From IMG/VR virus record IMGVR_UViG_3300010389_000076, positions 1 to 31,660 of that record: DNA of 31,660 bases; one strand, written 5' to 3'. The position numbers and the translations under genes are program-made. This document shows positions 12,134 to 30,306 of the stretch, piece by piece. Source of the stretch: a virus. A model generated the notes under the pieces. It did not search any database, was not told where the DNA came from, and saw nothing but the letters and a program-made list of their open reading frames with translations. The number at the start of each line of letters is the position of its first letter. Position 1 is the stretch's first letter.

Positions 12134-12141
12134 TATTTAGA
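12134..12141 (-). promoter_or_regulatory. Possible degenerate late promoter TCTAAATA
   Basis: The minus strand reads TCTAAATA, one mismatch from NATAAATA, 23 bases before the ATG at 12111 and overlapping the TAA stop of the oxygenase gene. Position and overlap are the same as for the clear late promoters, but the mismatch leaves it doubtful. Confidence 0.35.
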
Positions 12142-12814
12142 TTTGCTTCCATTGGGTAGGGTGTGTTGACCCTTGATGATGATTATAAAACTCTGGTTTG
12201 AGAGTAACTCTAACATCTCCAGCAATTACAATCCTCTCATCTTCTCTTTTATTTGTTTTCTTCGTGAAATGGACCACATTGCTTGGAAATATTAGAACTG
12301 TCCCTTCATAAGGAGTAATAGTATAAAAATTACAATTGTATCTATTGTAAGAAAGTATGACATTATTTTCATTTGCAACTTCAAACAATCCACCAACAGA
12401 TTCATTTCTATTTTTATATTGCTGGAGACAAAATTTATCAGAAGATGAATCTGTTTTCAGATAATAAACAAAACTAAGATTTGCTTCATTGTGAAAATGA
12501 GATGGAATTGATGGAGTTTCATCATCTTTATGATATCCAACCCATGATTTTGTTACATGATAATCTAATTTTGAATAATCTATTCCAATATTTTGATAAT
12601 AGTTATCAATTGATTTCTTTAGATTGCAGAAGAAGGAAGAATACTTTGGTTCAAGATGCATGAAAATTTTACCAGAGCATTCTGGACTTTCATTCTCATA
12701 TCCATTGAACCAATAGTTTCTTATATCATCTAGATATTCTTTTTTAAATTCTTGATGACATTCAATTGAATCCTGATAGACAATTAAAGGAAATAATTCA
12801 TGAACTTTATTCAT
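12137..12814 (-). CDS. 2-oxoglutarate/Fe(II)-dependent oxygenase
   Basis: 225 residues from the ATG at 12812-12814 (MNKVHELFPLIVYQ); a TTG one codon upstream is less likely. It has the layout of the phage 2OG-Fe(II) oxygenase family: a P-S-H106-F-H108-N stretch followed by LSFVYYL, then GTVLIFPSNVVH182F, then R194 in ERIVIAGDV. His106/His108 and His182 are the likely iron ligands and Arg194 the likely 2-oxoglutarate contact. The substrate is unknown. The start overlaps the stop of the fibre-like gene upstream by one base (TGATG), so it is made together with virion proteins, and hydroxylation of a tail or fibre protein is a reasonable guess. A second, different member lies at 29731-30306. Confidence 0.85.
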   Translation of the reverse strand: MNKVHELFPLIVYQDSIECHQEFKKEYLDDIRNYWFNGYENESPECSGKIFMHLEPKYSSFFCNLKKSIDNYYQNIGIDYSKLDYHVTKSWVGYHKDDETPSIPSHFHNEANLSFVYYLKTDSSSDKFCLQQYKNRNESVGGLFEVANENNVILSYNRYNCNFYTITPYEGTVLIFPSNVVHFTKKTNKREDERIVIAGDVRVTLKPEFYNHHQGSTHPTQWKQI

Positions 12815-13644
12815 CAATCAGCATTAATAATATATTCTTCATTATCTCCTGGATAGTCATTCTCTGTCAAGCCTTTATATTCAGAAATATTCTTACTTAC
12901 ATCCTTTCTTTCACCATAGACAACATAACTACAATTGATTGGTCCACCAGCATTGTTTTTTACAATAACCTTTGTTCCCCATTCAATTTTCTCTACAAAT
13001 AATTCTTGATATGATCCAATAGGTGTCAGAACAACATTAATGCTTTCTGGATCCACCAAATGACGCCAATACTCAGGAAGATCAATTACTGTATTGTCTT
13101 TAAGTTTTCCTCTGACATATACATCAGCTGATGGTCCTTCCACACAAACATATCTAAGTCTATGATCTTCCTTTGATGGGTGAGGAATATCAAAAGACTT
13201 CTTAGAGTTTGCAATTGCTCTGGTTGTTGTCATATATGTGGCAACATCACCAGAAATTCCTGATAATGTCATCACACTATTACATGCCACAACACCATTT
13301 GCAACAACTGCACCATTAACAATTACTGATCCATTTGCAATTATATTTCCATTGAAAACAGTATTCAATACATTTGCAATAAGAGATGGTAAATCTTGAT
13401 AATATCCTTTTTCTAAAGTAATTAAGTTTATATTATTTCCATACCCATGAAAATAAGCATATTCAGCAGGATTGTTAAAAAATAACATCCCAATATCATT
13501 AAATTTGTATGATGTGTCAATTGGCAAATCTGTATGCCAAAGTCCTTCTTGAGATGAAATGTCATAACTGTATGCAGCCTCATCATAACTCAGAGGACCA
13601 GTGAAAGTTGCGTAATTCCTGTTAATAAATGGTCCTGGTGACAT
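12814..13644 (-). CDS. Fibre-like virion protein with shared C-terminal domain (copy 2)
   Basis: 276 residues from the ATG at 13642-13644 (MSPGPFINRN). The N-terminal half is unique, with a short stretch of imperfect VxANG repeats (IIANGSVIVNGAVVANGVVA). From about residue 155 it carries a domain with FDIPHPSKEDHRLRYVCVEG, then VYVRGKL, LPEYWRHLVDPESI and LTPIGSYQELFV, ending near YGERKDV. The same domain occurs in the gene directly upstream (13644-14342). I have seen this kind of domain in many cyanophage fibre and baseplate proteins; a fold or cleavage role is not known to me. One-base overlaps (TGATG) link it to both neighbours. Confidence 0.75.
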   Translation of the reverse strand: MSPGPFINRNYATFTGPLSYDEAAYSYDISSQEGLWHTDLPIDTSYKFNDIGMLFFNNPAEYAYFHGYGNNINLITLEKGYYQDLPSLIANVLNTVFNGNIIANGSVIVNGAVVANGVVACNSVMTLSGISGDVATYMTTTRAIANSKKSFDIPHPSKEDHRLRYVCVEGPSADVYVRGKLKDNTVIDLPEYWRHLVDPESINVVLTPIGSYQELFVEKIEWGTKVIVKNNAGGPINCSYVVYGERKDVSKNISEYKGLTENDYPGDNEEYIINAD

Positions 13645-14342
13645 CAATCAATCTCCGTTACTAACTTTGGAACATCTTTTCTTTCTGCAAAAATATGATA
13701 ATAGCAATTGATAGGAAGTCCTGGCTTTGCTTGTATCACCACTTGATTATCTTGAACTCTTTTCACCATCAGATCTTGATGTGATCCAATAGGAGTAAGA
13801 GAAACAGTAATTGTAGTCTCATCTACAAGATTTCTCCATACATTTGGAAGTTCAATTGTATCTTTATTGTTCAATCTTCCTCTAATATAGACAGAATTCT
13901 CTGGACCCTCAAGACAAGCATAAACAAGTTTCATCCCACTTTTATCTGGATGAGGAATGGCAAAGTTTTTGGTCCTTGCCATGAGAACTTCAGTGTAGAT
14001 AATTTTAGACTTAATGAGTTCTACTGTCAGAAGTTTATCTACTTTTAGGAAACTCTTGATTCTTGCAAATGTCTTTACGAATAATGCATAGAAAGGAATT
14101 GGTTTCATTTCAATATTGAAATTCTGACCAATCATCACATTACCAAGTCCATTTGCAGGACTAGCAGGTAATCCATCTGCCACAGCAGTTGTAGGATCAA
14201 ACTGACCATTTGGGTCACCAGTGATTGTTGGTCCCTCCAAATAAGCAGAACCACGAACTTCTAGTGGTCCACGACCAAGAATCTCTGGATTTCCAAGTCC
14301 AAGAAAGAATCTCTTTCCTACAAATAAATCAGGTACTTTCAT
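13644..14342 (-). CDS. Fibre-like virion protein with shared C-terminal domain (copy 1)
   Basis: 232 residues starting MKVPDLFVGKRFFLG. The N-terminal part is Gly/Pro-rich (GPLEVRGSAYLEGP), typical of a fibre base. From about residue 120 it carries FAIPHPDKSGMKLVYACLEG, VYIRGRL, LPNVWRNLVDETTI and LTPIGSHQDL, ending FAERKDVPKLV. This matches the C-terminal domain of the gene downstream almost motif for motif, while the N-terminal parts are unrelated. The start overlaps the stop of the 193-aa gene by four bases (ATGA). It is probably a baseplate-attached structural protein. Confidence 0.75.
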   Translation of the reverse strand: MKVPDLFVGKRFFLGLGNPEILGRGPLEVRGSAYLEGPTITGDPNGQFDPTTAVADGLPASPANGLGNVMIGQNFNIEMKPIPFYALFVKTFARIKSFLKVDKLLTVELIKSKIIYTEVLMARTKNFAIPHPDKSGMKLVYACLEGPENSVYIRGRLNNKDTIELPNVWRNLVDETTITVSLTPIGSHQDLMVKRVQDNQVVIQAKPGLPINCYYHIFAERKDVPKLVTEID

Positions 14343-14920
14343 AGTATTGCCCTATTCTTAGCTTCATTTGATGATGGTATTTTGGATCCATTGACTTCTG
14401 TTGCACCATCTGCACAGTCAACTAGACCTCCGTATATATTTAATATAGCTCTGCCAATCATATCTACAGTTTTCTCTGAGAAAATTTTAGTGGATACTTT
14501 TGAGTTTACATCTATAGTTTGTGCCTTGATAAGAACTTTATCATTTGCTTCAATGATAACATTACCATTATTGTTATCTGAACCACTTGCTATTATATCT
14601 ACATTGATTCCTTCAATTCTTACTCTTCCTTTTGGTGCTCTTAATACAAGGTCTCCACTTACAGCATCAATGTAAACACCAGGTTTTCCATATGATACAT
14701 TATCACCCGCCTTTACTTGGAAGGATCCAAGAGATCTACAAATAGTTCCATGCTTACGATGATCCTCACCAGAAGCATCCATACTAATATAATGTAGTGG
14801 TTCTGATCCACTCCTAAGCAAGACAGAAGAGAGCACATTATCCTGGTGAATGTGCCCAAATTTTAATTCACCATTTCTATTACCATACCTAATAGTATAG
14901 TAATTTTTAGTTTGTGCCAT
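14339..14920 (-). CDS. Baseplate spike-like beta protein, 193 aa
   Basis: 193 residues, starting MAQTKNYYTIRYGNRNGELK. The middle and C-terminal parts are a series of short alternating beta strands (VYIDAVSGDLVLRAPKGRV, VNVIIEAND-type, VLIKAQTIDVNSKVSTKIF), similar in feel to the beta-helix end of T4 gp5 and other spike proteins. The gene overlaps the end of the gp5-like hub gene by 14 bases, which fits a spike made with its hub. It may replace the gp5 C-terminal beta-helix, which the neighbour seems to lack. Identification is by composition and position only. Confidence 0.6.
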   Translation of the reverse strand: MAQTKNYYTIRYGNRNGELKFGHIHQDNVLSSVLLRSGSEPLHYISMDASGEDHRKHGTICRSLGSFQVKAGDNVSYGKPGVYIDAVSGDLVLRAPKGRVRIEGINVDIIASGSDNNNGNVIIEANDKVLIKAQTIDVNSKVSTKIFSEKTVDMIGRAILNIYGGLVDCADGATEVNGSKIPSSNEAKNRAIL

Positions 14921-17297
14921 TAAACTTTCCTACACAATCAACTACTGTTACCAAATCTCCAGTTACTGGTTTATCCAGTTCATTCTCTCCAATTCTATCT
15001 ATGCACAATCTTGGAGAAAGAATTGCATTAAATCCTGTCTCACTCTCAATGTAGATTTCAGGAAGTTCAGTAAATCCTTCACCACCATCTGTTATCTTGA
15101 TACTTGTAACTGTTCCAAGATCATCAAATTCTGCAACTGCTTCTGCACCATTGCTAGGTTCAATAATAACCTTGTCACCTGGTGAATAATTAATTCCAGG
15201 TTGGTTAATAATAATCTCACAGATGTACATGATAACTGGATAAGATCCAAGACTTGTGATTGGATACTCATTTCTTAATGGTGTAATTGGCAGTCCTGGT
15301 GTTGTGAACTTTCCATTGTTGAGAATGACATGAGGTGTTTTGGCAGGAATTAATTCATCAGCATCTGTGATTACAGCATCTGGAACTGTCACAGTGTCTC
15401 CAGTTACAACTTCAACTACTTTTCCTGGTGGAATGGGAACTTCATAAGATACATCAGAGTGTTGAATGATTGTATCTTCTGGATTTGCCCAAGTTCTTCC
15501 TTCTCCACCAAGAGATCCATCAGGTGCTGGTAAGTAACCAACTCCACCTTCAACAACTTCTATACCAACAACGCCAGTGGTTACTGTTCCTGGGGGAAGT
15601 GTTCCTGTTGGATCAACTGTAGTTCCATTTCTTCCATCACCAACTACAACAGGACCTAAAATAGGCTTAATTACAGCACCAGATCCTTTACCACAATCAT
15701 CAACAACTTTTGCAGCACTTCTTCCTGCAATATAATTGATTCCTGCATTGGCAATATCAGCACCAATTACAGAACCTCCACCACTAATGATGAGATTAAC
15801 AGCAGCTCCTGTGCCACCACCAAAGAAGTTAGCAGTTGGAGGACCACATCTTCTAGGACCAGAGAAGCATGAATTTGCTCCTGCTGCAGCATCTTTGAAT
15901 ACTGAATCAAAGTCTATGCTAAATTTATAGTTTTCTGCATCTGTTACATTACTGATTGTATCAGTTACAGATCCAGAGAATGATGTAATTTTATCAATAA
16001 TTCCTGTCAAACTACCTAGTGGACTTGCATCTCCACCAGTCCAAAGATCCCATTCATCTACTTCTGGACATTCTGGTTTTTCCTCACAATTCAAGAATGA
16101 AAGAACATCTATAATAATGTCAAGTGCGCCACCTACAATGGATGCTATTCCACCAAGAGCAGAATTGATTGCACCAAATGCTTGACCAATAATACCATCA
16201 ACTAAATCTGCAATTCCTGCCAGAAGAGTTCCTAAGAAATTGTCAACAAGGCAATTAGCAGTGTTAATGACTTTATCTACTGCACCAAGAATAAAGTCTC
16301 TAACAATGTCTATCAGTGCTGCAATAATCTTCTTAAACAAACAAGCAATAAGATCATTTGCAGTTTCTACTGTTTCCTTTAATACTGCTTGTTCATTTGG
16401 GAACAGTGTATTATAAACTTTCTTTGCTGCACTATTTACTCTATTGGTTATTGCTTTTTGTATTCTTACAATGATCCATTTTATTCCATTAACAATAAAA
16501 TTGATACCATCCTCTATAAGTTTATTGATTTTTTCTTGTATTTCTGCAGTTTTCTTAGCAAGAGCATACTGATAACTATAAACTGACTTCTTTATTTTTT
16601 CTACTTCCTTAATAATATTCTGTATTTGTAATCTAATTCCTTCTATTTTAGATTTACAATCTTCAGATGACTGGAGAGGTTCCTTTATATTACCATCAGT
16701 TTTTTCTTCAGTTGAAGCATAATCTTTTGTCGAATTACTACCATTGGCACTTTCAGTTACTAAGGATGACCTATCAGTTCCTCCACCAGTATCATTAAGA
16801 GGTGCCTTTTGTCCACCAGGAACTGATTTTATCTGTTCAACTGCAATGCCATCTTTGGGTTCATATCCAGAAAATGGAATGAATCTGGTGGCAGGAACAT
16901 TAGACATAACTTGGTTATAGTCATTATAGCCAAGTGTTCCCATAATCACAGGTTGTTGGGCATCCTCCCCATCCATAAAGAAACCAAAGACAAAGGTTCC
17001 TTGTGTGAGGTTTGCTGATTGGAATGCACCACCAGGACCACCACCAGCAGTCACAGGATACATTACTGTTGCCCACTGGAGTGCAGCATCATCTAAAGTA
17101 TCTGGGTCAGCAGTGTGATACCCCATGATACGAACTTTGTATCTTTCACCAAATCCAGGACTATCTGCATTAGTTCCTACTGGATATCCAGGTATGTTAG
17201 TCTTCCAATCCTTTGCAGGCGCAATCTGACCTATCCACCAGATGAATCCATCCCTTCCTACAAAGTGTCTTTTAAATAATCCCTGCTGATCTAACAT
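14907..17297 (-). CDS. gp5-like baseplate hub protein, no lysozyme domain seen
   Basis: 796 residues. Residues 1-135 look like the gp5 N-terminal OB domain: FVGRDGFIWWIGQI, YKVRIMGYHT, ATVMYPVTAG, then GTFVFGFFMDGEDAQQPVIMGTLGY, the order seen in T4 gp5 (VGVV, RVRVVG, VYGHFLD, VLGTYGG). Residues about 210-400 are helical, with a coiled-coil part and alternating hydrophobic segments. The rest is Gly/Pro-rich with two GGxGY-like repeats near the end. I see no T4-type lysozyme motif and no octapeptide beta-helix, so it cannot be a full gp5. Peptidoglycan cutting may instead come from the two neighbours with M23 and RlpA-like domains. It starts 12 bases after the gp27-like gene. Confidence 0.7.
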   Translation of the reverse strand: MLDQQGLFKRHFVGRDGFIWWIGQIAPAKDWKTNIPGYPVGTNADSPGFGERYKVRIMGYHTADPDTLDDAALQWATVMYPVTAGGGPGGAFQSANLTQGTFVFGFFMDGEDAQQPVIMGTLGYNDYNQVMSNVPATRFIPFSGYEPKDGIAVEQIKSVPGGQKAPLNDTGGGTDRSSLVTESANGSNSTKDYASTEEKTDGNIKEPLQSSEDCKSKIEGIRLQIQNIIKEVEKIKKSVYSYQYALAKKTAEIQEKINKLIEDGINFIVNGIKWIIVRIQKAITNRVNSAAKKVYNTLFPNEQAVLKETVETANDLIACLFKKIIAALIDIVRDFILGAVDKVINTANCLVDNFLGTLLAGIADLVDGIIGQAFGAINSALGGIASIVGGALDIIIDVLSFLNCEEKPECPEVDEWDLWTGGDASPLGSLTGIIDKITSFSGSVTDTISNVTDAENYKFSIDFDSVFKDAAAGANSCFSGPRRCGPPTANFFGGGTGAAVNLIISGGGSVIGADIANAGINYIAGRSAAKVVDDCGKGSGAVIKPILGPVVVGDGRNGTTVDPTGTLPPGTVTTGVVGIEVVEGGVGYLPAPDGSLGGEGRTWANPEDTIIQHSDVSYEVPIPPGKVVEVVTGDTVTVPDAVITDADELIPAKTPHVILNNGKFTTPGLPITPLRNEYPITSLGSYPVIMYICEIIINQPGINYSPGDKVIIEPSNGAEAVAEFDDLGTVTSIKITDGGEGFTELPEIYIESETGFNAILSPRLCIDRIGENELDKPVTGDLVTVVDCVGKFNGTN

Positions 17298-17309: not shown

Positions 17310-18782
17310 TTAATTTAAGAATGAGTCTCCAGCTAATCTTAATGCCACAGTTCCTCTAGTATCTGCAACCAAATCTAAACTGGTAAAGGTATCCTGAGAA
17401 TTAACTTTATGACAAACACTAGATACCATATATATCGACGAAATACTATTGTTTGTATCATCACTTTGAGTCAGATCAACAAACCTACAAACAATTCTAT
17501 CACCAGCAAAAATACTAAAATCACCAGGAATTGTAATATTCAACTGTACTGAAAATAGCTGATTATATCTCATAATGGATTGAACCATAATATCTTCAGC
17601 TTCATAATTTGTTTTTACAATATCTTCTTTCCATTTTGTTAATTGTTGGTTTGAATCAACTCCACTTGGCATTACACCAGTATCAAGAACATGACTCATC
17701 AATCTAGTTGGTGAATTGATTACATTTTCTACTCTAGGAATATTTCTCTCTCTTCCAAGATAATTTAATATCTGATCATCTGTGTTGAATAATGTCACTT
17801 TATAGGACATGGAAAAAGGATCAAAGAAAATGGATCTATTATTGAATGTACCCAAATTGAGTTCCTTTGCAACATCAATGGTTCTAGTAAAGGTATAATT
17901 CAAAATATTGAATGCCTCATCATCACCAGGTCTTTTACCAGTATTATTATAGATGAATTTTTTAAGAGACTCTCCAGTGGTAGAATCTTTTGGAGTTGGT
18001 GATAATAATCTGTCTATTGAACGAAATTGAAATGATTCTCTAGTTTGGTAGAATAAGTATCCTGCACCACCACCTTGAATAGGTTTTCCATTTGCATCTG
18101 TAGCTTGTGGAACAGATTTACTTGCCAACCAAGTACAAATATAGAAAGGTTTTCTATCATTACCAATAAAGTTATAACTATTTGCAGTTTTATTGGTAAT
18201 AACTGGCAATTGTGTTCCTAAGATAGATGCATCTCTAAGTATATCAGATACAGAATCAGATATTAGTCCATCATATCTTTTTACAACTCTAGATTTCTCA
18301 TTACTAATATACTCTTTAGGAACTAAATCCAAAGCAAACATGTCCTTTAGAGAATTATTGTTTAACTCTCTAATTCTATTGATATACATTCCATCTGGAA
18401 TTTCAAGAACTGAACCATTTCCCTGGACTCTAAGATTGGAATGTTTTATTCTAAAGTCTACTCTTTCTCCACCAGCTAATTGTAGATAATCAATAATTCC
18501 TCTAGTGCGTAAAGCATTTAAACTAGTATCATCTTTCTTATCTCCACCTGTTGACTTTTCATCTGATTGATATCCAGTATCAATCAATACTACAGTTGCA
18601 CTAATGGTATTAGATAAAACACTCTCATAAAAAAAGAACTCTGAGATTGCACCAGTAACTTCTAATCTCTTAGTGTTCTCAGCATTTGTAATGATAAATT
18701 TCTCAATGGTTGATGGACCAATTGATGCATTAGTATTAAATGGAATCTCATTTAATTCTTGTTCTAGTGCTGTTATTGTCAT
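17310..18782 (-). CDS. gp27-like baseplate hub protein
   Basis: 490 residues. It starts MTITALEQELNEIPFNTN, followed by a KRLEVTGAISEFFFYESVL stretch, which is the typical start of hub proteins of the gp27 type. Central segments (RVDFRIKHS, LVPKEYISNEKSRVVKRYDG, PFYICTWLASKSV) and the C-terminal FAGDRIVCRFVDL fit a beta-barrel hub that sits under the tail tube. It lies between the two wall-active tail proteins and the gp5-like gene, as expected for a hub operon. Its ATG overlaps the stop of the 641-aa gene by one base (TAATG). The match to T4 gp27 is by position and general pattern and is not strong in sequence. Confidence 0.65.
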   Translation of the reverse strand: MTITALEQELNEIPFNTNASIGPSTIEKFIITNAENTKRLEVTGAISEFFFYESVLSNTISATVVLIDTGYQSDEKSTGGDKKDDTSLNALRTRGIIDYLQLAGGERVDFRIKHSNLRVQGNGSVLEIPDGMYINRIRELNNNSLKDMFALDLVPKEYISNEKSRVVKRYDGLISDSVSDILRDASILGTQLPVITNKTANSYNFIGNDRKPFYICTWLASKSVPQATDANGKPIQGGGAGYLFYQTRESFQFRSIDRLLSPTPKDSTTGESLKKFIYNNTGKRPGDDEAFNILNYTFTRTIDVAKELNLGTFNNRSIFFDPFSMSYKVTLFNTDDQILNYLGRERNIPRVENVINSPTRLMSHVLDTGVMPSGVDSNQQLTKWKEDIVKTNYEAEDIMVQSIMRYNQLFSVQLNITIPGDFSIFAGDRIVCRFVDLTQSDDTNNSISSIYMVSSVCHKVNSQDTFTSLDLVADTRGTVALRLAGDSFLN

Positions 18783-20707
18783 TATCCTTGCTTATATAAG
18801 AACCCAAGAACTTGGAAATTGTAATAACTATTTAACGCTTGATATGGATCAACTGGATATGTCAATACAGGAGATCCACTACCAGATGCTTTCTGTTGTT
18901 GCTGTTGTCCTGATTGAGTTGGAATAGGAATCAGTGCAGCCTCTCTCTTAGGTTCTTCATAAGGTGCATATTGTGCTACTGCTGGTGCTGATTTTGCTGC
19001 TGGTTTTTGTGGTTGTGCTTTTGCTATTTGTGTGGTCTGCAAACCACTCAAGAATGCAATAGGATCTACAGTTCCAGTGAATCCATAAGTTGTTGCCCTC
19101 CCCTTTCTTATTTCATAGTGGAAAACGCCAGTAGTTTTTGTTCCTTTAGCGATGGGTGTTCCTGCAGAAATTGTTTGTCCCTTTTTAACTAAAATTGTAT
19201 CTCCTTCAGCAACTCTTTCTGTAACGTCCAAATCAGAATTGTAAATATCAACATAATTGAAGTATCCATTAGGATCATAATCCACATTAGTAACTTCTCC
19301 GCCTATTCTAGAGTAGAAAGTATCATTAGGTCCAGCATCAAAATCTTGTCCTGCATGTTTTCTTCCACCTCTCCTTGATGCTCCATACATTTGTGCCGCA
19401 CCATATCTTGGATCAATTCCTGTTGGTGGAAGGGCAGGAAGACTAGATTGAGATACTAAGGTGGTTTGAGGTTGAACAGTTGCAGCAGGTGATGGTCCAG
19501 GAATTTGCATAGAAACCTGCTGTATATTTGCTTGTTGCTTTTGATTATTTTTATCTATCAAATTGCCATTTACATCTATTAGTCCCCTTCTCATAGCCTC
19601 TCTTACATAACCTGCAGTTTCAACAACTAAAGTTTGGGACATGGATTCAAAAATCAATTCCTGGTCTTTATATTTTTCTTTTAGTCTTGCTATTTCTTTT
19701 TCATTGCTTTCAATAGAATCCAATAATTTGTTGTCATCCCAAGTTCTAATTCCAAATCCAAATCTTGCATATAGTCCAGAGAAAAAATCTTCTATTTGTG
19801 GGGAAAATAACTGTGCTCCCAATATAGCTATTGTGAGAAGACCACCTCTTCCTGGTTTCAATCCTCTCATCCTATTAAAGACACCTTTCTTTGGTGTTGG
19901 TGGTTTTGCTGTACCACTTCTACCCTTTGGAGTTGAACCTCTGCCCCTTACTGGTCCTCCCCCACGAGCCCTAAATGGTGCTTTAGCTAATCCAAGAGCA
20001 ATTTTTCCAACACCAATAGCAACACCACCTAAAACTTTAAGGACAGTGAAAATCATTCCCATTGGTCCAATTATTGGTGCAAGAATTGCAAGTGCTATAG
20101 CAGTCAATGATCCAATAATAATTGCTAGGAAATTATCTTCTAAAAATTTAAACAAAGAGTTCTTATTGTTTGGATCACTAATCCAATTCAAAAATTGCAT
20201 TATTGCTGTACCAATTGCAAATCTCTTTAAAAATTCAAAGACACCTGGAATTTTTGGACCTTTAATTTTCAATCCTCTCTTTTCTTCACTGACTTTACTT
20301 GCTGTTTCTGCCCTTTCCTCCCTTTCCCTTTTCTTCTCAAGTTGTTTTGATCTTCTTTCTGCATCTGCACTTTTTGTGCCTGAATCATATTCAGACTTAG
20401 AAATTTTTAAAAGAGTACTTGTATTTTTTACTAAGGTGTCTAGAATTTTATTTAAATAATCAAAACTAACTTTTCCTTGAGGTGCTTTAGTTTCTTTTGC
20501 AGGAGGCAAAGAAATTCTAGGAACTAATTTTACAGAGGGTTTTGCTACTATAGATGAAGTTCCTGCCTTTACTATTGAAGAACTCTTTTTTTCTTTTTCA
20601 CTTGACTTAGATACAAATTTACTCGCAGTAATTTTTTTGTTTACCTCTTTCTTACTCTCAGAGGGTTTTAACATTCTTGCTGCTGCACCCATTAACATTG
20701 GAACCAT
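18782..20707 (-). CDS. Tail protein with M23-type (LytM-like) peptidase domain
   Basis: 641 residues. Residues 115-150 are a charged KR/E-rich helix, 159-170 the segment FLKRFAIGTAIM, and 185-243 two long hydrophobic segments. Residues about 440-555 form an M23 domain: H451-A-G-Q-D455 (the HxxxD zinc motif), GGEVTNVDYDPNGYFNYVDI, then F-H530-Y-E-I. In active enzymes the second motif is H-x-H; here the first His is Val528, so the three zinc ligands are present but the catalytic base is missing. The last 50 residues start LIPIPTQSGQQQQQ and match the neighbour's end. The protein is probably a tape-measure or hub-associated protein that touches the cell wall on entry. Confidence 0.75.
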   Translation of the reverse strand: MVPMLMGAAARMLKPSESKKEVNKKITASKFVSKSSEKEKKSSSIVKAGTSSIVAKPSVKLVPRISLPPAKETKAPQGKVSFDYLNKILDTLVKNTSTLLKISKSEYDSGTKSADAERRSKQLEKKREREERAETASKVSEEKRGLKIKGPKIPGVFEFLKRFAIGTAIMQFLNWISDPNNKNSLFKFLEDNFLAIIIGSLTAIALAILAPIIGPMGMIFTVLKVLGGVAIGVGKIALGLAKAPFRARGGGPVRGRGSTPKGRSGTAKPPTPKKGVFNRMRGLKPGRGGLLTIAILGAQLFSPQIEDFFSGLYARFGFGIRTWDDNKLLDSIESNEKEIARLKEKYKDQELIFESMSQTLVVETAGYVREAMRRGLIDVNGNLIDKNNQKQQANIQQVSMQIPGPSPAATVQPQTTLVSQSSLPALPPTGIDPRYGAAQMYGASRRGGRKHAGQDFDAGPNDTFYSRIGGEVTNVDYDPNGYFNYVDIYNSDLDVTERVAEGDTILVKKGQTISAGTPIAKGTKTTGVFHYEIRKGRATTYGFTGTVDPIAFLSGLQTTQIAKAQPQKPAAKSAPAVAQYAPYEEPKREAALIPIPTQSGQQQQQKASGSGSPVLTYPVDPYQALNSYYNFQVLGFLYKQG

Positions 20708-20713
20708 TTTCTA

Positions 20714-22717
20714 TTACCCCACAATGTTATAGATGGACTTAATTACCAAGAAACTTGGATTTGTTTTATCATATGCAGAGAATGTTGGAGTCCCATACTG
20801 GTTTGCAGTGGATGTATTGGTTTGCTGTGCCTGTTGATTTCCTGATGCAACTGGTATTGGTATTGCAGTAACTCCTCCTGTTCCTGGTGCTGCTGGAGGT
20901 GGTACATTTGGTTTTGCTGCTGCAACCTTTGCTACTGATGGAGTGGGTGATTGCGACTTTGCACTTGCAGGAGCTGCAGATGGATGAGTCAATGTGCCAT
21001 CTGGTTTTTGATAGAATGTTTGACCTCCAAATGTAACCATTTTCCCTTGGTTTTGTGATGGAGAAGCAGGTGCAGAAACTGGAGATGCTGTAGGTGAAGA
21101 TCCTGGTGCAGATGCTGCAGGAGCAGAAGTTTTTGTTACTGGACCAAGTTTTGCTCCTGATGGTGCCATTTGAACAGTATACGGTCCACCACCAGCACCA
21201 AAGTAGTCTCTAGTAGCAACACTAAAGTCCATCATTCTTTTTGGATCTTGTCCAGCAACACCAGATCCAACATCATTGATTCTCACAACTGCTTGTTTCC
21301 CAGTTTTTGAATCAGTGACTACAACATTGAAAGCATTTCCTGGAGCTAAAGTTCTACCAATACCACCCCAATTTGGATCTTGAGATGGTGTAGTCATACT
21401 TCTTGGGAGTTTTGATATGAGAGATGGGAATGCTGCAGCTGTAAATTTATTTTTATCATATCTCTCACCAGTAGAAGTCCTAGCATTTGGATCTCTTCTA
21501 CCAGTTCCAGAGTTAATTCCACCCAATCCAGGATTATACCAAGATGCTTTTGCACCAGTTGCCAAAGTCTGTCCAGGAGGTCCAGAAAGTGGTGTTCCTG
21601 ATGCTGGTTGTGATGCTGCTGGTTGTGCAGGACTTCCCATTGGAGTACCAAAAATATTAGGTATTCTTGGAAGTATCTGTTGATCTGGATCAGGAGTAGG
21701 AATTAATGGAACAGAAGGTGATGGTATATCAGGAATATCTATTCCAATATTATTGAGTTTGTTAAACTCATTATTGATTTGATCAACTATTTCGACAACA
21801 CCATTATTAAATTCTTCTATCTTACGATTAATTGGAGAAACTATCTTATTGATAAGATCTTTTATACTATCTTCAAGTTTTTTGATGATACCATTCATCC
21901 AATCAAATATTGGTTGGAAATATGCAGCTGGTCCCATTTCAAGGAGTTTTATCAACTCCATAATGGCAGTTCCTATTAGGAACCTCTTAAGAAAATCACC
22001 AATTACATCAATAACTCCTTTGACAGGAGCAATTGCAGAAGATAAGGCATTTTTCATTCCGGATGCCATCTTCCCTCTTTCTGCCCTCTCCTCTCTTATG
22101 ACTTTTCTTGTTCTTTCTGCAGATACTCTGTCCTTTTCACCCTTCTTTCTCTCCAGATCATTCTTTTTCTTATCAGTATCAACTATTTTTTTAATATTAT
22201 TGTTTGCATCAGAAATCTTATCAGCCAACAATTTCATTGACTGATCAACTTTTTCTTCCTGTGGTTCAGCAACAGGTTTAATTTGTGCAGGTTTTGGTCC
22301 TACTGTTCCTGGAAGTGCCTTTAGTGGTTTCCTTGTAGTAGTTGGTTGTTTCTTCTTTGCAACAAAAGATTCTGCTTTAATCTTTTGTGCTTTTACTTTG
22401 AATCTGCCAGTTTTTCCCTTTACTCTCTTAAATTCATTAGTGAGTAACTCAATCTCTTCTGTTGGCATTTGACTGCCAGGCATTCTGCCAGCAGCCATTT
22501 TTTCTCTAAGAAGAGTTTTGTAAGTATCATAATCAATATCAAATACATCCCCAAGACCCAATAATCTAAGAATTAATGGATCTATATCTTCATCTACAAC
22601 ATCTGTTCCTTTCTTTTCTGCCTTAGGAATAACTGCAAGCGCAGAAGAAGATTGAGGTTTTCCTTCATCCCTGATTGATTTTAGTAGGTCATCCAAATCT
22701 GGGATTTTATCCGCCAT
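20714..22717 (-). CDS. Tail protein with RlpA-like double-psi beta-barrel domain
   Basis: 667 residues. Residues 185-217 are a charged coiled coil and 242-253 read FLKRFLIGTAIM, followed by more helices (KIVSPINRKIEEF). A Pro-rich linker leads to residues about 388-510, an RlpA-like domain: ASW393YNPGLGG, TSTGERYDKNKFTAAAF, VVVTDSKTGKQAVVRIND482VG, then MMD497FSVATRDYFG. RlpA proteins cut denuded glycan strands of peptidoglycan. The RIND aspartate is present; the His that often follows TAA is replaced by Ala. The last 50 residues (AIPIPVASGNQQAQQ...) resemble the neighbour's tail. It follows the gp26-like gene, the place of a tape measure in many phages. Both a tape-measure and a hub role remain possible. 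Confidence 0.75.
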   Translation of the reverse strand: MADKIPDLDDLLKSIRDEGKPQSSSALAVIPKAEKKGTDVVDEDIDPLILRLLGLGDVFDIDYDTYKTLLREKMAAGRMPGSQMPTEEIELLTNEFKRVKGKTGRFKVKAQKIKAESFVAKKKQPTTTRKPLKALPGTVGPKPAQIKPVAEPQEEKVDQSMKLLADKISDANNNIKKIVDTDKKKNDLERKKGEKDRVSAERTRKVIREERAERGKMASGMKNALSSAIAPVKGVIDVIGDFLKRFLIGTAIMELIKLLEMGPAAYFQPIFDWMNGIIKKLEDSIKDLINKIVSPINRKIEEFNNGVVEIVDQINNEFNKLNNIGIDIPDIPSPSVPLIPTPDPDQQILPRIPNIFGTPMGSPAQPAASQPASGTPLSGPPGQTLATGAKASWYNPGLGGINSGTGRRDPNARTSTGERYDKNKFTAAAFPSLISKLPRSMTTPSQDPNWGGIGRTLAPGNAFNVVVTDSKTGKQAVVRINDVGSGVAGQDPKRMMDFSVATRDYFGAGGGPYTVQMAPSGAKLGPVTKTSAPAASAPGSSPTASPVSAPASPSQNQGKMVTFGGQTFYQKPDGTLTHPSAAPASAKSQSPTPSVAKVAAAKPNVPPPAAPGTGGVTAIPIPVASGNQQAQQTNTSTANQYGTPTFSAYDKTNPSFLVIKSIYNIVG

Positions 22718-22886
22718 TTGCTTGCTTCTGCTTGAGTTCTTCTTCCTCTAAATGTTGCTTAAGGAGTGCAACATAAATGTCTCTCTCCCAAGGCATCATA
22801 TTTTCTATCTCAGTCAATGAGTATTTATGATACTGCATCAAGGCGAAATTGAGTCTGAAATAACTCTCAAGGTCCATATGGACCAT
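22707..22886 (-). CDS. 59-codon ORF, candidate -1 frameshift extension of gp26-like protein (gp51-like?)
   Basis: Reads MVHMDLESYFRLNFALMQYH, then KYSLTEIENMMPWERDIYVA, ending with an acidic then basic helix; TAA at 22707-22709. The EIENMMPWERDIYV segment is a pattern I know from tail-assembly chaperone C-terminal parts. The frame is -1 relative to the gp26-like gene and stays open up to its T TTT TTC stretch, with CGC ATA GGC before the ATG. No Shine-Dalgarno sequence is seen before the ATG (22884-22886) or the next ATG (22875-22877). It therefore may be translated by frameshift to a 300-residue fusion, as with lambda G/GT, or as a separate small protein in the place of T4 gene 51. It overlaps the next gene by 11 bases. 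Confidence 0.7.
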   Translation of the reverse strand: MVHMDLESYFRLNFALMQYHKYSLTEIENMMPWERDIYVALLKQHLEEEELKQKQANGG

Positions 22887-22888
22887 GC

Positions 22889-23608
22889 CTATGCGAAAAA
22901 ACTGGATAATCCCTCCAGAACTACAGTACTTTTGACTTTAGTTTTTGGATTGGTTACTTCAATTTCATAAGAAAGTTTTGGCATGGTCTCAAAGAACTTT
23001 TCAATTTCTTTGAACTGAATGGAATTCATCTGCTCAAGAAATTCTACTACTTCTTCCTTAGTAACATCAGCAGTGGACCAGACTTCTTCTTCGCTGTAGA
23101 TCTTATCAACACAGGATGCAATCAAATCAAATGATTGTTCCATATTTGAACTATCACTGAATTCAAAATTATTCTGAATGAATTGATTTAATGATGGATA
23201 TTTCATTTCCATCATCAGTTCATCAGAGAGTTTAATTCTCTTAGAGTGATCTTTGTTCTCTGTGACATTAATTTCATCAACAGAAATCTTAATGGGAATT
23301 TCTGTCACACCATCATCAGGAGCAATAATATTAACTTCTACTTCTTCACCAACTGACTTTCCTCTAATATTGAGAAAGAGATACTCAATGTCAAAGGTAG
23401 GGAGTTCTTCTACTTTAACTCCTCTGGTCTCTATGCAATTCTTTAGAACAGTTTTAATTGCTGTAGTGATTTGCTTGGTATCTTCACTCTCAAGTGCAAG
23501 AACTAACAGTTTTTCTTCCTTTACAAGGAAAGGTCTATACTTAATTGGTTTTTTTGTGGAAGGCAATACCAACTCATATGTTGGAGTAGCAATCTTTGGT
23601 AAAGGCAT
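22889..23608 (-). CDS. 26: gp26-like baseplate hub assembly protein / tail chaperone
   Basis: 239 residues. It starts MPLPKIATPTYELVLPSTKK, then FLVKEEKLLVLALESED; the next segment, IKTVLKNCIETRGVKVEELP, is followed by FDIEYLFLNIRGKSVGE. This is the typical pattern of the T4 baseplate protein family (gp26), which is found in front of tail tape-measure or hub genes. Residues 100-130 hold IPIKISVDEINV and the C-terminus has a negatively charged helix and a final strand ending EGLSSFFA. It acts in assembling the hub/tape-measure complex, not in the finished virion of T4, by analogy. Just before its TAG stop the coding strand reads T TTT TTC, a potential -1 slippery site. A late promoter lies 30 bases upstream. 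Confidence 0.85.
   Translation of the reverse strand: MPLPKIATPTYELVLPSTKKPIKYRPFLVKEEKLLVLALESEDTKQITTAIKTVLKNCIETRGVKVEELPTFDIEYLFLNIRGKSVGEEVEVNIIAPDDGVTEIPIKISVDEINVTENKDHSKRIKLSDELMMEMKYPSLNQFIQNNFEFSDSSNMEQSFDLIASCVDKIYSEEEVWSTADVTKEEVVEFLEQMNSIQFKEIEKFFETMPKLSYEIEVTNPKTKVKSTVVLEGLSSFFA
22895..22901 (-). promoter_or_regulatory. Candidate -1 frameshift slippery heptamer T TTT TTC
   Basis: In the gp26-like frame the codons read AGT TTT TTC GCA TAG, so the heptamer has the X XXY YYZ form. After a -1 slip the next codons are CGC ATA GGC ATG GTC and the frame stays open for 62 codons. I did not identify a clear downstream stimulatory hairpin; the sequence ATGGTCCATATGGACC just after it contains the perfect palindrome GGTCCATATGGACC (22871-22884), which could fold or mark the site. 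Confidence 0.6.
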
Positions 23609-29126: not shown

Positions 29127-29734
29127 GTTCCTCCACAGACTATTTCTTTTAGGATTTTTTTGTATTTGAACACATCAGTATGTATAAAAGAACTATACTT
29201 GTCCATCCTCATGGATAGAAATTCCCATACAGGATCTTTTAATTTTTTATCAAAGTTATTCTTGTACCCAAGAATTCTATCAAGGATAATCATTGTCTCC
29301 AAAGAAATATTTTTTTGGAGATGTTCCTTTACTAAGAGTGGATGTTTAGATCCTTCAATCATAAACATCTTATCAAAGTTTTTCTTATTAAAGAGTGTCT
29401 CAATCTCTTCTTTGAAGAGATAAGAAAGAGATTGAATTCTTTTTTTCCACTGAGTATAGTTTTCCTCTCCATTCTGCATGATCTCTCCAATCCATAGTGT
29501 CTGGGGATCATCACAAGTAACAAAGTTAGAAACAAAGAACTCAATTACTTCAGAGTCATCTTTCTTTCTACTCAATTTCTCAAAGAAAAATCTGTCCCTT
29601 CTTTTGTAGAAAGACTGGACAGAAGCTCGTGACTTACCACAATATTTGTGATAATCATATGTCTTTTTAGTAAAGTGATTTTTCAATCCAAGATAAGACT
29701 TGTAAGTATCAAAGGGAGTCACTTTAGGAATCAT
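29123..29734 (-). CDS. 59: Helicase loader gp59
   Basis: 203 residues (T4: 217). It shows the gp59 pattern: FDTYKSYLGLKNHFTKKTYD at the start, then KYCGKSRASVQSFYKRRDRF, FFEKLS, FFVSNFV, WIGEIM and a C-terminal half with LLVKEHLQKNISLETMIILD and VWEFLSMRMDKY. It loads the replicative helicase gp41 onto gp32-coated DNA at forks and recombination intermediates. The gene overlaps the upstream oxygenase and the downstream DUF1825-like gene by four bases each, so the three are probably translated in a coupled way. Confidence 0.9.
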   Translation of the reverse strand: MIPKVTPFDTYKSYLGLKNHFTKKTYDYHKYCGKSRASVQSFYKRRDRFFFEKLSRKKDDSEVIEFFVSNFVTCDDPQTLWIGEIMQNGEENYTQWKKRIQSLSYLFKEEIETLFNKKNFDKMFMIEGSKHPLLVKEHLQKNISLETMIILDRILGYKNNFDKKLKDPVWEFLSMRMDKYSSFIHTDVFKYKKILKEIVCGGT

Positions 29735-30306
29735 TGCTTAAGGTTTATATTGAATGCAAAAGTAATTCTTTCTCTCCAAGATTTTTGAGGTTCAACATAA
29801 TGCAAAACATTACTTGGAAATAGAATCATTGTTCCATTTTTTCCAGGATACATTGTACTATATTCAGGAAAAATAGTAGGATGATTGTGATTCTTATGGT
29901 AAATTACTCCAGATATAATTCCTGCATGATTATGTGTTGGATTTTGATCTCCTTTATAAGCAAAATTTGCCCAAATATCATATCCATCAAAATGACCATC
30001 CCATTTTCTCAGATAATATGATCTATGATCTGATCCAAAAAGTTTGGATGTAAGACGAAGAGTGTAGGATAACCAAAAAGAATTCTCAATTAATTGAATA
30101 GGTACACCACATTGGTAAGAATTAAATTTTTTAGAATTGGAACTATATCCAACATTTTCATGAGATTTTAATTCTGAAAGAGGATGATTTTTTATTTTTT
30201 TACACTCTCTTTCCCAAACAGAAATTTCTTTATTAATTTCTCTTGGCAATTTAGTAATAAAAATAGGTGCTGATTCTGTCAGCCTCTCAAATTGGTAGTT
30301 TAGCAT
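29731..30306 (-). CDS. 2-oxoglutarate/Fe(II)-dependent oxygenase (second copy)
   Basis: 191 residues. It shows the family's motifs clearly: P-T-H-N-H-A-G-I-I-S-G-V-I-Y for the first iron-binding part, then GTMILFPSNVLHYVEP with the distal His, then RERITFAFNI with the Arg expected to hold 2-oxoglutarate. It shares these motifs with the gene at 12137-12814 but little else, so the two are separate family members. Its neighbours are gp33 and gp59, which suggests expression during replication and perhaps a different substrate. It overlaps gp33 by 20 bases and gp59 by 4 bases. Confidence 0.9.
   Translation of the reverse strand: MLNYQFERLTESAPIFITKLPREINKEISVWERECKKIKNHPLSELKSHENVGYSSNSKKFNSYQCGVPIQLIENSFWLSYTLRLTSKLFGSDHRSYYLRKWDGHFDGYDIWANFAYKGDQNPTHNHAGIISGVIYHKNHNHPTIFPEYSTMYPGKNGTMILFPSNVLHYVEPQKSWRERITFAFNINLKQ

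Follow-up and report, generated by a model that had tools for sequence, protein, structure and literature searches.

Paralogous tail proteins of T4-like cyanophages as probable carriers of exchangeable wall-cutting modules

Introduction

Bacteriophage T4 uses a single lysozyme domain in gp5 for host entry, and the locus described here raises the question of how the tails of T4-like cyanophages open the wall of their hosts. We analysed a viral DNA of 31,660 bases (IMG/VR record IMGVR_UViG_3300010389_000076; this whole stretch is called the window below), which is a fragment of a T4-like cyanomyovirus whose nearest annotated records are Synechococcus phages. Two neighbouring genes in it encode tail proteins of 667 and 641 amino acids (aa), here named P1 and P2. 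The reading that we favour, with a probability of about 0.72, is that P1 and P2 are anciently duplicated tail-hub proteins of T4-like cyanophages, which carry exchangeable wall-cutting modules for entry. T4-like cyanophages are common marine viruses, and most records label these proteins ‘hypothetical’. In the open-licence literature we found no description of how cyanophage tails breach the wall, and a prior account may exist elsewhere.

Results

P1 and P2 share an N-terminal scaffold

A preliminary description, made from the letters of the window, had proposed that the two proteins have common ends with different wall-enzyme domains between them. Both open reading frames (ORFs) and every motif that it quoted were confirmed at their places in the window, and BLASTP of P1 against P2 gave E = 4e-9 over both the proposed shared coiled coil and the FLKRF(L/A)IGTAIM helix. 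A hidden Markov model (HMM) built from P1 N-termini alone recovered 57 of 65 P2 proteins at E < 1e-3 (best 8e-20), and the reverse model, based on P2, recovered 57 P1 proteins (65 non-redundant genomes); neither model matched any other gene among the 540 ORFs of the same loci. The structure models of P1 and P2 are of low confidence overall, and their use was restricted to the M23 domain and the helices. Features of the two proteins in the window, including the predicted local distance difference test (pLDDT) of one region, are:

20714..22717, minus strand: P1, tail protein of 667 aa, an ORF of the two-ORF site between gp26 and gp27 (85/86 loci)
22388..22606, minus strand: P1 small globular N-terminal region, residues 38-110 (AlphaFold2 pLDDT mostly about 87-96)
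21935..22249, minus strand: P1 long helix/coiled coil, residues 157-261, homologous to P2 (BLASTP, HMM; helix from the structure model)
21959..21994, minus strand: P1 FLKRFLIGTAIM helix, residues 242-253, matching the P2 helix of the same phage
21134..21598, minus strand: P1 DPBB/RlpA-like module, residues 374-528 (Pfam DPBB_1 below cut-off, 48% identity to the P2-slot module of L096, motif likeness to PA4485)
20717..20866, minus strand: P1 C-terminal tail, residues 618-667 (IPIP motif and terminal helix)
18782..20707, minus strand: P2, tail protein of 641 aa, an ORF adjoining gp27
20282..20464, minus strand: P2 coiled coil, residues 82-142 (HMM homology, structure model)
20198..20233, minus strand: P2 FLKRFAIGTAIM helix, residues 159-170 (sequence comparison, within-phage matching)
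20018..20137, minus strand: P2 hydrophobic, membrane-like segments, residues 191-230 (Kyte-Doolittle scan)
19058..19402, minus strand: P2 variant M23 module, residues 436-550 (Pfam, Foldseek match to LytM, residue survey)
18785..18934, minus strand: P2 C-terminal tail, residues 592-641 (IPIP motif and terminal helix)

The common C-terminus of the preliminary description stood only in part. The similar stretch does start exactly 50 residues from each end, its local score between P1 and P2 was equalled or passed by 2 of 5000 shuffles, and its likeness within a phage is modest (z = 3.8). No alignment was obtained, however, between the C-terminal profiles of the P1 and P2 families (HHalign probability 0.1%). 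This rules out homologous C-terminal domains, and what was kept is a short P/Q-rich motif, IPIPxxSGxQQ. Thus, as judged from sequence comparison, the homology of P1 and P2 over the coiled coil and the FLKRFxIGTAIM helix is firm, and their C-terminal likeness is that of a short motif.

Coiled coil and helix match within each phage

A new point of this analysis is that the scaffolds of P1 and P2 resemble each other most within the same phage. Among 30 genomes less than 45% identical in their cores, the helices of same-phage P1 and P2 agreed at 45% of positions compared with 27% in mismatched pairs (z = 10.4, reached in 0 of 20,000 permutations, which treat the genomes as independent despite their shared ancestry), and agreement in the coiled coil before the helix was 29% compared with 21% (z = 8.0). 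No within-phage matching was found in the 30 columns downstream of the helix, and because the matching stops there, a genome-wide composition effect is unlikely. These data suggest that P1 and P2 may assemble together or bind one partner.

The duplication is older than this phage lineage

In a tree of the cores, P1 and P2 were split with 5 misplaced tips among 114, the support of the best splitting node being low (0.42), and each window protein clustered with its same-slot counterparts from the closest relatives. Because the cores split by slot and the window proteins join their same-slot relatives, the duplication is, on this tree, old rather than recent. The gene duplication and the exchange of the enzymatic module that had been proposed for this phage both hold, as properties of the whole family; a recent single event in this phage does not. 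If a tandem duplication had occurred recently in this lineage and one module had then been swapped, this would explain that helix and tails of P1 and P2 are alike within a phage, but such a history is contradicted by the same-slot grouping in the core tree and by the DNA, which is identical at just 27 of 39 positions at the helix and 30 of 54 in the C-terminal motif, and we consider it scarcely credible. Recent gene conversion at the helix was considered separately and is unlikely in the window, where the 27/39 identity comes with silent differences.

The two-gene site across relatives

On the minus strand of the window the gene order is tail tube, gp26, a 59-aa gp51-like ORF, P1, P2, gp27-like and gp5. 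Packing is tight: 6 bases lie between P1 and P2, and the P2 stop overlaps the gp27 start. The flanking genes are:

22889..23608, minus strand: gp26-like baseplate hub protein (Pfam T4_baseplate, 1.1e-70)
22707..22886, minus strand: 59-aa gp51-like ORF, overlapping the P1 start (at the position of gp51 in annotated relatives)
17310..18782, minus strand: gp27-like tail protein, overlapping the P2 stop (phrog_350, 1e-82; position and order in relatives)
14907..17297, minus strand: gp5-like hub/spike protein without a detectable lysozyme domain (phrog_1922, 6e-124; no lysozyme family)

Relatives were gathered by scans of viral contigs with gp27 and with the modules; tblastn against the contigs gave no relative when P2 was the only query. 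Slots were assigned from HMM matches to gp26 and gp27 together with distance, and labels such as L003 or L096 denote loci of this survey. Exactly two ORFs of at least 300 aa lie between gp26 and gp27 in 85 of the 86 loci that hold both flanks; phages known by name that have two genes here include RN05-S, S-SCSM1, S-SM2, Bellamy, P-TIM68, P-SSM2, S-PM2, Syn1, P-SSM7, Syn33, S-CAM9, S-SSM4, DSL-LC02 and S-CAM1. P1 and P2 are 368 to 1415 aa long in the survey set. The exception is S-CRM01 (L119:12919-15513), in which a single gene between gp51 and gp27 carries a Phage_lysozyme domain; a few further loci resembling one-gene sites (7 unique) came from the later module search.

In S-B43 (L062:6716-14960), the strand opposite the P1 ORF (6716-8848) carries genes annotated as tail-fibre-like and structural. 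Its close relative RN05-S has P1 and P2 where S-B43 shows these opposite-strand genes, and the annotation or assembly of S-B43 may be off.

Wall-enzyme modules are diverse and exchanged between slots

The preliminary description had pointed to the same position in relatives as the place where other modules might be found. In a Pfam survey of 65 P1 and 59 P2 proteins (per-protein tables for about 40, otherwise family counts), about 13 wall-hydrolase families were named across the set, plus weak DPBB. Modules of P1 were Phage_lysozyme2, Phage_lysozyme, Amidase_2, Amidase_3, CHAP, M23, Glucosaminidase, VanY and weak DPBB; those of P2 were M23, Phage_lysozyme2, Hydrolase_2, Glucosaminidase, Phage_lysozyme, M15_3, Amidase_2, VanY, SLT, CHAP and Amidase_5, and a GH19 module occurs in the S-CREM2 group. 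Part of these matches fall below the curated Pfam cut-offs, and some proteins have two modules.

Modules also resemble each other across slots and across phages. The DPBB module of the window P1 is 48% identical to the P2 module of L096, and the amidase region of L044 P1 is 57% identical to Syn33 P2. Between the P2 proteins of the window and of L004, identity is 50-75% in residues 41-200 and 60% in the final 40 residues but drops to about 20% in residues 441-560, a region in which the otherwise more distant P2 of L063 is 62% identical to that of the window. In L003, P1 is window-like after the module, and its DPBB core is nearer to L096 P2 (24/30 versus 15/29).

Module-only searches of 2.9 million viral contigs, which made no use of the scaffold, returned 78 loci with the M23 variant described below (50 beside gp27, 18 after gp26, 2 with a core but neighbours off the contig, 8 elsewhere) and 40 loci with DPBB (31 beside gp27, 8 after gp26, 1 with core only). 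On the module trees the parsimony minimum was 5 slot changes for the M23 variant and 4 for DPBB, below most shuffled labels, which argues that modules are mostly inherited and sometimes switch slot. By these comparisons the enzyme modules are exchanged repeatedly, both between phages and between the two slots.

One scan of genomes from bacteria and archaea yielded a single confirmed case of the M23 variant, in a metagenome-assembled genome (MAG) of the cyanobacterium Nodosilinea. The variant also lies inside ORFs of about 2,100 to 3,100 aa at L184, L185, L190, L208 and L212 (other viral contigs and a Nodosilinea MAG). In S-PM2, residues 66-218 of P1 (L117:12886-16389) form a predicted ADP-ribosyltransferase domain (Pfam ART, E = 1.3e-5), N-terminal in a protein that also has a phage tail lysozyme domain.

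The M23 module of P2 lacks two catalytic histidines

The M23 domain that had been read from the letters of P2 is supported by Pfam (PF01551, E = 4.8e-8, 33.5 bits compared with a curated cut-off of 28.7), and the model of this domain has a LytM-type fold (Foldseek match to 4zyb, E = 1.5e-7, TMt 0.67). Compared with peptidase family M23, fold and zinc ligands are the same, whereas both catalytic histidines, whose roles we take from PMC9662197, are gone. Among 67 unique members of the subfamily, the zinc ligands (HxxxD and the last His of HxH) are invariant in 67/67, the first His of HxH is replaced by Val in 66/67, and ER[IV]AEG stands in nearly all where the upstream catalytic His stretch normally lies. 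The Val count is biased, since one of the search patterns contained Val; the ERxAEG stretch was in none of the patterns. A cruder test, i.e. no His near either catalytic site, held for 58/67. Moreover, an invariant Glu lies beside the position of the lost His. This tight constraint on zinc ligands and Glu makes the variant look like a changed active site rather than decay. The loss of two histidines with the zinc ligands kept is a further new point of this work, and the variant, seen in the window and at L134-L211, is widespread in marine viral contigs. The pre-ejectosome internal protein of cyanophage A4 (PDB 9k2v), which is another virion component and keeps the canonical HLH motif, has an M23 domain that shares 31% identity with the one in P2 in a structure alignment.

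The module of P1 is DPBB-like

For P1, an RlpA-like barrel had been proposed. The stretches TSTGERYD and RINDVG are present, which resemble the TSTGERYD and VVRINDxG motifs of RlpA-like DPBB lytic transglycosylases, but the Pfam match (PF03330) stays below the cut-off (20.6 bits compared with 28.8), and the module has Ala where RlpA-like domains presumably have His. PA4485, a DPBB-type protein, matches weakly in two short stretches (E 0.023). Neither a sequence search of the PDB with P1 nor, at E <= 0.001, a Foldseek search of the PDB with its model returned a match, and in the latter barwin-like entries appeared only at E 1.3 and 2.2. Because of the sub-threshold Pfam score, the RlpA-like motifs and the weak match to PA4485, we call the module ‘DPBB-like’. 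Accordingly, of the two different peptidoglycan activities foreseen for this tail, the two distinct modules stand, and the activities are left in doubt by an M23 variant without two catalytic His and a DPBB-like module below cut-off.

P1 and P2 homologues in virions

At the same site as P1 and P2, S-CREM2 has ORF208 and ORF209 and S-SCSM1 has ORF213 and ORF214. The cores of the S-CREM2 pair escaped the HMMs, and this pair was therefore assigned from its modules and the position of its genes. Published mass spectrometry of S-CREM2 virions detected both proteins, with 73 unique peptides for ORF208 and 71 for ORF209 (PMC10665884). In S-SCSM1 virions ORF213 and ORF214 were likewise detected, and the authors also raise possible carry-over (PMC9602691). 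In the available parts of both papers the pair is not described as paralogues, as having a common scaffold or as an exchange site.

Discussion

The best explanation of the data, taken together, is that P1 and P2 serve in wall opening at entry. The neighbourhood of gp26, gp51, gp27 and gp5 is that of T4, and tail-hub wall cutting for entry would be common to both, while in the cyanophages the enzymes sit in two separate paralogues with exchangeable families and not in gp5. In agreement with the contrast to T4 drawn in the preliminary description, a Pfam search (E <= 0.001) found a lysozyme domain in 0 of 36 cyanophage gp5 proteins and Gp5_OB in 26 of the 36. In the proposed mechanism, the N-terminal coiled coil and hydrophobic helix would form the scaffold of each protein, followed by linkers that are flexible, at least one enzyme module and, at the C-terminus, a short anchor-like peptide. 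The scaffold would bring both P1 and P2 into the virion, probably together, and upon tail contraction the modules would reach the periplasm and open the wall, which is the job of the gp5 lysozyme domain in T4. Here we infer the position inside the tail, the joint assembly and the release on contraction.

Several observations weigh against this reading. The structure models of P1 and P2 have predicted template modelling (pTM) scores of just 0.28 and 0.31, the DPBB_1 match of P1 (E = 5e-4) lies under the curated Pfam cut-off, and the M23 module of the window lacks both canonical catalytic histidines. Many P1 and P2 members are without any Pfam module, so that some slots may hold unfamiliar or non-enzymatic modules. 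In a minority of slot proteins the P1/P2 core is undetected by HMM (one or both proteins of e.g. S-PM2, Syn1, P-SSM7, Syn33 and S-CAM9), presumably through divergence or replacement.

Several database records annotate such proteins as ‘endolysin’ or ‘lysozyme’, and P1 and P2 might thus act in the release of progeny; this is very unlikely in view of the tail-hub operon, the shared non-enzymatic scaffold, the presence of two genes per genome and the high peptide counts in S-CREM2 virions (PMC10665884). A more serious alternative, which we still rate as unlikely, is that the lumen of the tail tube holds P1, and perhaps P2, as the tape measure protein, with wall enzymes riding on it, as in the long tape measure protein of mycobacteriophage TM4 with its embedded wall enzyme (PMC1796659). 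Some P1 proteins share a tape-measure-type module: VPAMLTPGEFVMSKGAV..GGGTN is found in 26 of 65 P1 (33 by a looser motif) and in 0 P2, and several PHROG profiles of tape measure proteins match it at about 1e-4 to 4e-7. Moreover, P2 has hydrophobic segments, and the pair is long where the tail is long (1565/1456 aa in S-CREM2, with a tail of 418 nm) and shorter where it is shorter (933/722 aa in S-N03, 138 nm; 936/735 aa in S-H34, 129 nm). However, the extra length in S-CREM2 consists of low-complexity and domain-like stretches instead of a long helix, the predicted helices of the window proteins, at about 60-170 residues, would be far too short for the tail, lengths vary from 368 to 1415 aa across the survey, the window P1 is without the VPAMLTPGEFVMSKGAV..GGGTN module, and S-CRM01 has one gene only. 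Compared with tape measure proteins bearing wall-hydrolase motifs such as that of TM4, the cyanophage set comprises two paralogues, with at most a hint of length setting in S-CREM2. A tape measure role would challenge the placement of P1 and P2 in the hub more than their function in entry.

The M23 variant bears on whether both proteins of the window cut the wall. As a non-catalytic wall-binding or regulatory domain it would leave at most one cutting enzyme in P1 and P2; the Val in place of the first HxH His and the ER[IV]AEG stretch in place of the upstream His stretch point that way, and degenerate M23 proteins such as EnvC and NlpD work via protein contacts (PMC9662197). The three zinc ligands invariant in 67/67 and the invariant Glu next to the lost His speak against it, and we regard a non-catalytic role as possible but doubtful. 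More speculatively, hub-borne entry enzymes in P1 and P2 might amount to an entry device with two slots, whose paralogous scaffolds co-evolve and take almost any wall-hydrolase fold, and the M23 variant might be a rebuilt, glutamate-based zinc site; we put this picture forward only tentatively. With the variant one could examine how a zinc peptidase fold works, or is used, once its two histidines are gone. The combination of a constant scaffold with exchangeable enzymes, moreover, provides a comparative system for asking why wall enzymes change so fast within one phage group and by which surface they are held in the tail.

Minor observations

The S-CREM2 pair (L127:6484-15555) contains long Ser/Thr/Asn-rich and QQSMGSVAP repeats, and an example of the VPAMLTPGEFVMSKGAV..GGGTN module is seen at residue 616 of L058 P1. 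Elsewhere in the window, two separate 2OG-Fe(II) oxygenase-like ORFs (phrog_81) lie at 12137-12817 and 29731-30306, and the adjacent ORFs 12814-13647 and 13644-14342 both match phrog_17490, a possible further tandem duplication.

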